Shown here: piece after piece, positions 18,717 through 21,304 of the stretch | Layout of the letters: each line of letters begins with the position of its first letter | How positions within the stretch are numbered: the stretch's first letter is position 1 | DNA from: Pseudomonadota bacterium | GTDB lineage: Bacteria; Pseudomonadota; Alphaproteobacteria; Puniceispirillales; Marisalimonadaceae | Assembly: GCA_028382005.1 (NCBI GenBank) | Contig: JAOESH010000002.1 | Coordinates: forward strand, 1 to 64,000 | DNA length: 64,000 nucleotides | Direction of reading: 5' to 3' | Notes under the pieces: model-generated | Databases searched by the model: none | What the model was told of the DNA's origin: nothing | The model's input: the letters and a program-made list of their open reading frames with translations, nothing else | Made by a program: the position numbers and the translations under genes

Positions 18717-19523
18717 TTGAAACAATTAGAAACTAATAATAATAATTTTTTTTTAAGTATATTAAATTTTTATAAGGAAATTGGAGTTGATTTATTAATA
18801 GTTCAAAATCAAGAAAAACAAAAAAATTACAAATTAAATAAAAATCGTACAAATATTAAAGGCAATAACCTAATAAGTTATCCAGTAATGAATGAAGAAA
18901 AAAAAGCAAACAATATTGCAATTAAAGCTCAAAATATTCAGGAGTTACAGGATCTTTTCCAAAATTTTGAGGGCTGTAATCTACAAAAAACAGCAACAAA
19001 CTTCGTTGAATTTCAAGGCAATACAAATACTGATATTTTAGTTATTGATGGAACACCTAATACAGATGAAGATAAAATTGGAAAATCATTTGTATCTGAA
19101 AAAGGTAATCTTTTTGACAAAATTTTAAACGCCATAGGATTAAATAAAGATAAAATTTTTATAGTTAATGCGGTACCTTGGCGTCCTCCTGGAAACAGAT
19201 ATCCAACCGAACAAGAAATAAAAATTTGTAGACCCTTTATTTATAATTTGATAAAATTAATAAAACCAAAAATAATTGTATGTTTGGGTGAAGTGGCAAC
19301 AAATCAAACATTAGATTTGAATCAAAGTATAATTAAATCTAGAGGTAAATGGTATTTTTTAAAATCTAATTCATATTATAACAATAGCGAAATAGAAGAT
19401 AATATATATGTACTTCCTACTCTAGGCATTTCATATTTATTAATGAGACCTGATATGAAAAAAGAAGCTTGGGAGGACATGAAAATGTTAAGAGATAAAA
19501 TAAAAGAAATTATAATCAAGTGA
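18717..19523 (+). CDS. Uracil-DNA glycosylase family-4-like protein with altered catalytic motifs
   Basis: NAVPWRPPGNRYPTEQEI and GKSFVSEKGNLFDKIL; GEAPG replaced by DGTPN, HPAYLL replaced by GISYLL. Confidence 0.85.
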   Translation: MKQLETNNNNFFLSILNFYKEIGVDLLIVQNQEKQKNYKLNKNRTNIKGNNLISYPVMNEEKKANNIAIKAQNIQELQDLFQNFEGCNLQKTATNFVEFQGNTNTDILVIDGTPNTDEDKIGKSFVSEKGNLFDKILNAIGLNKDKIFIVNAVPWRPPGNRYPTEQEIKICRPFIYNLIKLIKPKIIVCLGEVATNQTLDLNQSIIKSRGKWYFLKSNSYYNNSEIEDNIYVLPTLGISYLLMRPDMKKEAWEDMKMLRDKIKEIIIK

Positions 19524-21304
19524 TAAAATATTATAAGAATAAATTAGTAATTATTTTATATTTTGTTTTAAGTATGTTTTTACTTAATAAGTATTCATGG
19601 GCTGATGTTGATAGTTACAACAAAGTTTTGTCTTCTAAAGATATTCAAATATATAAAGAAATTTTTAAAATTCAAAAGAAGATTATTAAAAATAAAAATT
19701 CTAAGGAATGGAATAATGTTAACATTCTTATTAAGAAATTAGATAACAAAATACTGTTGGGTAACGTTTATTCTCAGAGATTTCTCCACCCTACTGGTTG
19801 GAGAAGTTCTTATAAAGATTTAAAAGTATGGCTAGATAGATACAATGATCACCCTGACGCTACAAGAATAGCTAAATTAGCAATTAAAAGAAAACCAAAA
19901 AATGCAAAAAATCCTAAGGCTCCAACAAAAGGTTTTTTAAATGGATATGGTACATATAAATCAAATACCCTTAAACCTAGATTTCCACTAAATAATAACA
20001 AATATTCAAGATTTTCTTATTCTACTTCAATTAAATTTAGACGAGCAATTAACAAACGGAATACTAAATATGCTGAAAATTTAATTAATAGTAAAAAAAC
20101 AAAAAAATATCTCAATAAAAGGGAGTTATCTCAATTAAGAGCTGAGTTATCTCACGCTTTTTTCATATTTAATCAAGATTATAAAGCTATAAGACAGGCA
20201 AGATTATCTTTAAGTTTATCAAAAATACCAAATCCATTGGCGTTATGGGCAGGCGGATTGGCATCTTGGAGAAACAAAGACACTAACTTATCAAAATATT
20301 TTTTTAATAAACTAATAGAAGATAATGATGGACCTGAAGGTATTGTGGCAGGAGGTGGTTACTGGTCGGCACGAATTGCGTTTGTATTAGGAGAACCAAA
20401 AAAAGCAAATTATTATTTAACTAAAGCAGCCCTTAAAGAAAGAACATTTTATGGCTCATTATCAATGGCATCATTAGGTTATAAGTATAATCCAAATTTT
20501 GATTTACCAAAATTGAGTTTAAATTTAATCAAGAAAATTATTAGTTACAAAGGTGGCTTAAGAGCGATGGCTCTTATTGAAGTAAATGAATTTCATAAAT
20601 CAGCAAGAGAGTTTAGAAAAATAATACCTAAATTTGATATAACTGATTATCCTCAATTATTGTCATTTGCCTCTAAAAACAATATGCCTGGCTTAACCTT
20701 TAGATTAGCCGCAATTTTAAGAAATGATCATGATAAAATTTTATTGGGAGGGTTATATCCAGTCCCTTCATGGAAAATGAACACTTCTAACTTAAAAGAT
20801 AGAGCTTTGGTTTATGCTATCGCAAGACAAGAATCTGGTTTTAACCCTAGAGCGAGAAGTTCATCAAAAGCTATGGGCGTTATGCAAATTATACCTTCAA
20901 CAGCTGCATTTATTATGAAAAATAGAGAATATAGACTTAGGAAAAGTAAAAATCATATGCTTTACAACCCACCTCATAATATTCAAATTGGTTCAAAGTA
21001 TATGAAGTTTCTTCTTAACTTACCTATAGTTAATCAAGATTTGATGTGGATGCTAGCAAGTTATAATGCGGGGCCTGGAAATTTTAAAAAATGGACAAAA
21101 AATAAAGATTATAAATCTAGTGATGCTTTACTAATGCTTGAAAGTTTGCCAGCAAGAGAAACTCGTAACTATATTAAGTTAGTATTGACTAATTTATGGA
21201 TATATAAAATCAGATTTAAACAGGAAAATAATATTTTGTCTGCTTTAGCATCAGGCAAGTCGATTGATTTTAAAGTTTTTTTTAAAAATAAAATGGGAAG
21301 TTAA
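19520..21304 (+). CDS. Soluble lytic murein transglycosylase (SLT domain)
   Basis: ARQESGFNPRARSSSKAMGVMQIIPSTA, ASYNAGPGNFKKW. Confidence 0.93.
   Translation: MIKYYKNKLVIILYFVLSMFLLNKYSWADVDSYNKVLSSKDIQIYKEIFKIQKKIIKNKNSKEWNNVNILIKKLDNKILLGNVYSQRFLHPTGWRSSYKDLKVWLDRYNDHPDATRIAKLAIKRKPKNAKNPKAPTKGFLNGYGTYKSNTLKPRFPLNNNKYSRFSYSTSIKFRRAINKRNTKYAENLINSKKTKKYLNKRELSQLRAELSHAFFIFNQDYKAIRQARLSLSLSKIPNPLALWAGGLASWRNKDTNLSKYFFNKLIEDNDGPEGIVAGGGYWSARIAFVLGEPKKANYYLTKAALKERTFYGSLSMASLGYKYNPNFDLPKLSLNLIKKIISYKGGLRAMALIEVNEFHKSAREFRKIIPKFDITDYPQLLSFASKNNMPGLTFRLAAILRNDHDKILLGGLYPVPSWKMNTSNLKDRALVYAIARQESGFNPRARSSSKAMGVMQIIPSTAAFIMKNREYRLRKSKNHMLYNPPHNIQIGSKYMKFLLNLPIVNQDLMWMLASYNAGPGNFKKWTKNKDYKSSDALLMLESLPARETRNYIKLVLTNLWIYKIRFKQENNILSALASGKSIDFKVFFKNKMGS

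Follow-up and report, generated by a model that had tools for sequence, protein, structure and literature searches.

The psi subunit of DNA polymerase III (HolD) has a fold like that of the uracil-DNA glycosylases (UDGs), and among the UDGs themselves, roles that are independent of catalysis are, to our knowledge, chiefly poxviral. Vaccinia UDG has a catalysis-independent role in DNA replication (PMC1936997). In the family-4 enzyme Tth UDGa, single substitutions at the active site are costly; H155S lowers k2/Km about 2,500-fold and E41Q about 900-fold (PMC5387724 Table 1). UdgX is a family-4-like protein that becomes covalently linked at sites of uracil. Its motif-B arginine (R184) takes part in substrate binding (PMC10359453). 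Literature searches on UDGs of SAR116, UDG pseudoenzymes, ties between UDGs and psi, and UDG together with dUTPase in SAR11 found nothing pertinent.

Here, we describe a UDG-derived gene in the window (the whole stretch of 64,000 nucleotides that was analysed) and follow it through the bacterial order to which the window belongs, where relatives bear names such as SAR116 cluster and SCGC AAA536-G10. Below, f1 denotes the window's own bacterial family, with the genera g1 (that of the window), g2, g3 and g4, and f2-f4 denote the order's other families.

The gene and its altered motifs

The gene lies at 18717..19523 on the forward strand as an intact frame of 268 amino acids, with a TTG start and zero internal stops, and its reading frame, profile matches and orthologues lead us to annotate it as a putative pseudoenzyme derived from a family-4 UDG. 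The preliminary description of this DNA had taken the frame to be intact and full length and the protein to be of family-4 ancestry, and both points stand; the protein matches TIGR00758 (UDG_fam4) with E 1.3e-45 and 155.2 bits, above the curated cut-off of 125.3, it matches PF03167 with E 5e-25, and its closest solved structures are the family-4 UDGs 1ui0 and 4zbx (Thermus and Sulfolobus). A first scan of the genome contigs that used the single window protein as query returned zero matches. Downstream is slt (lytic transglycosylase; 19520..21304, forward strand), which serves as a syntenic anchor in the order; it begins with GTG and shares 4 bp (GTGA) with the stop end of the UDG gene. The TTG start (18717-18719) recurs in all g1 and g3 copies with the 5' end present, such that a weak start codon is itself conserved.

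What exactly has changed in this protein? Residue equivalences come from alignment to Tth UDGa, and residue roles from PMC5387724. Motif A (19047..19073, forward strand) reads DGTPNTDED where canonical proteins have GEAPGxxED; GEAPG has become DGTPN at residues 111-115 (G40 to D111, E41 to G112, G42 to T113 and G44 to N115), and P43, E47 and D48 are kept. Motif B (19425..19442, forward strand) reads GISYLL at residues 237-242 where HPAYLL is canonical, with G237 in place of the catalytic H155 and I238 in place of the proline; position 237 is Ser, Asn or Gly in 20 of 20 g1/g3 proteins. Just beyond, at M243-R244 (19443..19448, forward strand), the invariant arginine of canonical proteins (LLR-x-P) is lost, and a new invariant arginine stands one residue on. 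The loss of both signature motifs, claimed earlier for the window protein, recurs in every one of the 28 orthologous loci read from g1 and g3. Sequencing error or frameshift was considered and rejected, as the 28 loci come from separate assemblies and agree.

Other features of the uracil pocket are retained. F125 (19089..19091, forward strand), the equivalent of the uracil-pocket residue F54, is invariant in g1/g3, and the PWRPPGNR loop (19176..19202, forward strand), fully conserved according to orthologue columns and pN/pS, includes N160, the equivalent of the water-positioning N89; together with E118 (E47), these two residues never vary among 20 g1/g3 proteins. N151 (19167..19169, forward strand) corresponds to N80, which binds uracil N3/O4, and is kept in the window copy; of the 20 proteins, 9 have N at this position, 10 have K and 1 has T. 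This loss of N80 in 11 of 20 relatives, alongside the universal retention of E47, F54 and N89, goes beyond what was first described. Several altered columns are conserved in themselves, and the group-specific invariant residues include D111, K129 (19101..19103, forward strand; S or A in the canonical columns), F148, Y162 (which comes after the PWRPPGNR loop), C189, E192 (19290..19292, forward strand; an acidic residue just past a core strand of the model, in a column that is mostly G in canonical proteins) and R244. The window protein is without the full set of 4Fe-4S cysteines, but this absence is not diagnostic because the aligned canonical alphaproteobacterial orthologues are also without it.

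An AlphaFold2 model calculated with 56 own and related sequences (pLDDT 86) predicts that the UDG fold is intact in the window protein, with a disordered linker at residues 29-54, and the best solved match of this model is the family-4 UDG 4zbx (TM 0.87 on the target). The N-terminal extension contains a predicted helix at residues 3-21 (...LNFYKE; 18723..18779, forward strand), a feature also drawn from pN/pS, and Gly23, directly after the helix, is invariant from the canonical orthologues through g4. The model of the g4 form is less sure (pLDDT 79) and resembles UdgX.

Descent and selection in the window's family

The gene is a vertically inherited positional orthologue of alphaproteobacterial family-4 UDG. 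Where f2, f3 and f4 were sampled, the protein encoded at the same locus has GEAPG and HPAYLL motifs in canonical or near-canonical form, in the common gene order TPR - UDG4 - slt - moaB - rnhB - ccrM. One f2 locus (L153:2428-4104) has, between TPR and UDG4, a gene that by eye encodes an electron-transfer-flavoprotein-type oxidoreductase; most f3 and f4 loci have a similar-sized gap at this place, and the oxidoreductase gene is gone from the locus in f1.

Within f1, the altered gene is present in 26 of 40 g1 genomes and in 2 of 2 g3 genomes. In the g1 genomes that are missing it, the adjacent slt is also missing or runs to a contig end, so we attribute the absences to assembly gaps and reject sporadic gene loss. 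In g2 and g4, this position is occupied by an ORF of ~205 amino acids that is intact but still more degenerate; PF03167 gives a weak match in the g2 forms and none in the g4 forms. Profile comparisons nonetheless join the series, linking g2 to canonical UDG4 (97.8% / 8.9e-13), g4 to g2 (98.8% / 1.4e-16) and g4 to canonical UDG4 (90% / 1.6e-6). An HMM of the g4 form gave chance matches only when compared with solved structures. In the slt tree, f1 is one clade in which g1 plus g3 is sister to g2 plus g4. None of the four genera has an equivalent of E41 or of H155, whereas G40D and the motif-B change of P to I are found in g1/g3 and not in g2; the catalytic residues were therefore probably already gone in the ancestor of the family, and the two branches diverged afterwards.

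Purifying selection, which had been presumed from the window sequence, is now measured. In unsaturated g1 pairs, dN/dS is 0.16-0.29 for the UDG4-derived gene and 0.10-0.15 for slt, and for canonical UDG4 in pairs within f2 or f3 it is 0.17-0.26; these are simple Nei-Gojobori estimates from AT-rich genomes and from pairs that are not all independent, and a value well below 1 is robust while fine comparisons between estimates are not. When 12 pairs are pooled, pN/pS by the same simple method is 0.21 for motif A, 0.10 for the PWRPPGNR loop and 0.16 for motif B, compared with 0.25 for the core overall and 0.60 for the N-terminal region, where the helix (residues 10-27) is at 0.39 and the linker at 0.72. 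In other words, constraint on the altered loops matches that on the core. The g4 copies are at 0.42 overall. Constraint is partly relaxed, since relative to slt the protein evolves 2-3 times faster than canonical UDG4 (1.8 in g1 versus 0.5-0.8 in f2-f4, with 1.2 in one single pair).

Uracil repair in the genomes and the rival readings

Is there another enzyme to excise uracil? The search for a further UDG that the preliminary description proposed succeeds in relatives and not in the window's own assembly, which is 80.7% complete and has a single PF03167 match, the altered UDG, with Ung missing. All 6 second PF03167 matches read in g1/g3 were canonical family-1 Ung proteins bearing GQDPYHG and HPSPFS, so uracil excision is covered in these relatives. 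Genera g2 and g4 have Ung plus the family-5 enzyme UDGb, and no UDGb was seen among the g1/g3 PF03167 matches read. A further difference concerns dUTPase; the trimeric form (PF00692) was detected in 0 of 42 g1/g3 genomes (G044, G039, G010 and G004 included), several of which are 90-100% complete, in 10 of 16 g2/g4 genomes and, elsewhere in the order, in 68 of 78, and dimeric dUTPase was not found in f1 either. The absence in g1/g3 may be unrelated to the altered UDG, and an unrecognised dUTPase is possible there. MazG, considered as a substitute, is uninformative in that it is also present in dUTPase-positive genera.

We think it probable, with some room for doubt, that the protein is, throughout the lineage, a pseudoenzyme that no longer excises uracil to any useful extent and is kept as a DNA- and/or partner-binding or scaffold protein. 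The residues lost (H155 and E41/G42) are those that stabilise the leaving uracil, and judging from these residues and the published Tth UDGa single mutants, uracil excision should no longer proceed at a useful rate. The loss would date to the origin of f1, an AAA536-G10-like branch of the SAR116 order, or to soon after it; uracil excision would then have been left to family-1 Ung, and selection would have retained the UDG fold, the PWRPPGNR loop (in g1/g3) and the N-terminal helix on its flexible linker. As conservation suggests, the role served would most likely be the non-catalytic binding of DNA and/or of a replication or repair partner, as with vaccinia D4 and, going by fold, psi. Of the new substrate and the DNA-binding role raised in the preliminary description, binding is favoured because degeneration in g2/g4 removes the whole pocket yet the gene stays; with a pocket that is altered and constrained in g1/g3, a pocket that is dismantled in g2/g4, and a gene that is kept throughout, the simplest account is that the whole family shares a binding role. 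Counting against it, the retained E47, F54, N89 and window-copy N80, along with the new invariants D111, K129, Y162, E192 and R244, would also fit new chemistry, and the faster evolution relative to slt bespeaks partly relaxed constraint.

What might that chemistry be? The main rival, which we regard as unlikely but worth serious attention, is a neofunctionalised enzyme in g1/g3 whose rebuilt pocket accepts a new substrate, for example another damaged DNA base or a uracil nucleotide, the lineage having no detectable dUTPase. Loops as constrained as the core and group-specific invariants beside the retained pocket residues are what such an enzyme would display, and the genomic pattern points the same way, with both dUTPase types undetected in g1/g3, the trimeric form found in g2, in g4 and in the order's other families, and UDGb read in g2/g4 only. 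However, g2 and g4 keep the gene without the whole pocket, so a family-wide function needs none; moreover, the K or N at the N80 position within g1/g3 means that base recognition varies, and S, N or G may stand freely at the H155 position. We consider it quite unlikely that the pocket was rebuilt specifically as a new active site that handles uracil in DNA or nucleotides differently, in bacteria that no longer have a recognisable dUTPase or UDGb, which, if true, would mean a changed way of living with uracil. That the protein is still an active uracil-DNA glycosylase, with catalysis by other residues, is extremely improbable; catalytic residues do differ between UDG families (PMC5387724) and part of the pocket is in place, but the equivalents of H155, E41 and G42 are all gone, N80 is lost in half of the orthologues, and Ung is present in the relatives read. 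The lineage-specific relic entertained in the preliminary description, i.e. a slowly decaying gene with residual or zero function, fares little better and is very unlikely. Faster evolution relative to slt and the shorter, more degenerate g2/g4 copies speak for decay, but every assembled locus in the four genera carries an intact copy, the changed loops are under constraint, omega is well below 1 in unsaturated pairs, and neutral genes should not be expected to persist in small AT-rich genomes.

The pseudoenzyme reading that we prefer also has a more specific form, in which the protein would be a psi-like clamp-loader accessory, an alphaproteobacterial counterpart of psi derived from UDG4; we find this form quite unlikely. 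Membership in psi (HolD) was examined because Foldseek returned E. coli psi, 1em8_B, as a match of the less sure g4 model, with TM 0.58 normalised on psi, prob 0.97 and E 0.034. The HolD profile compared with A1 gives E 0.0014 in a sensible register, but at 17% probability only, and PF03603 has no match in the window protein or in the scanned g1-g4 proteins. A PSSM for the clamp-loader-binding N-terminal motif of HolD gives no significant match either in alphaproteobacterial UDG4, where the median p is 0.34 and 0.58, or in g1/g3, where it is 0.37 and 0.16. The partner chi (HolC, PF04364) was found in 0 of 58 f1 genomes, with E. coli and Caulobacter controls positive. We therefore do not assign the protein to psi by Pfam, profile comparison, N-terminal PSSM or chi presence. 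Elsewhere, a 169-amino-acid HolD-family protein (L226:1468-1974, from G285), of which PF03603 covers residues 6-158, reads by eye as a catalytically dead family-4 UDG (LLKEMGISEW ... FIARPQDKRLLWQDL), and L228, a canonical UDG4 of another Pseudomonadota genome, has a HolD-like N-terminus (shuffle p 0.002); judging by these two proteins, psi itself may have descended from UDG4.

Comparison with known systems

Annotation pipelines would label this protein a uracil-DNA glycosylase and so mispredict repair capacity, in ocean bacteria in which the altered UDG4 coincides with the loss of recognisable dUTPase. The closest described system is family 4 (UDGa; Thermus, Sulfolobus and alphaproteobacterial proteins), with which the window-type proteins share the fold, overall sequence, E47/F54/N89 and the PPxNR loop, and whose canonical representatives in the order occupy the same chromosomal locus; the window-type proteins differ in that E41/G42 and H155 are lost, N80 is partly lost, the motif-B Arg has moved and new invariants have appeared. 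UdgX shares the family-4-related UDG fold, but it keeps GEQPG, HPS and a KRRIH loop (PMC10359453), and the window protein has none of the three; its score on the UdgX test TIGR03914 is 94 bits versus a cut-off of 190. The UDG-like fold of psi has no glycosylase site, and the window-type proteins, the g4 form above all, appear to resemble psi weakly in fold and profile; however, psi is shorter and binds chi, whereas window-type proteins are without a PF03603 match and chi was not detected in f1.

Vaccinia D4 offers the precedent for a UDG that has a role without catalysis, although it is viral, only distantly related, and has the partner A20, and no A20-like partner is known for the window protein. 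The present family would be a bacterial and chromosomal case that spans a whole lineage, and sister families still carry the active-type ancestor at the same locus. Its graded series, from canonical to almost unrecognisable, opens the question of what a glycosylase does once its catalysis is gone.
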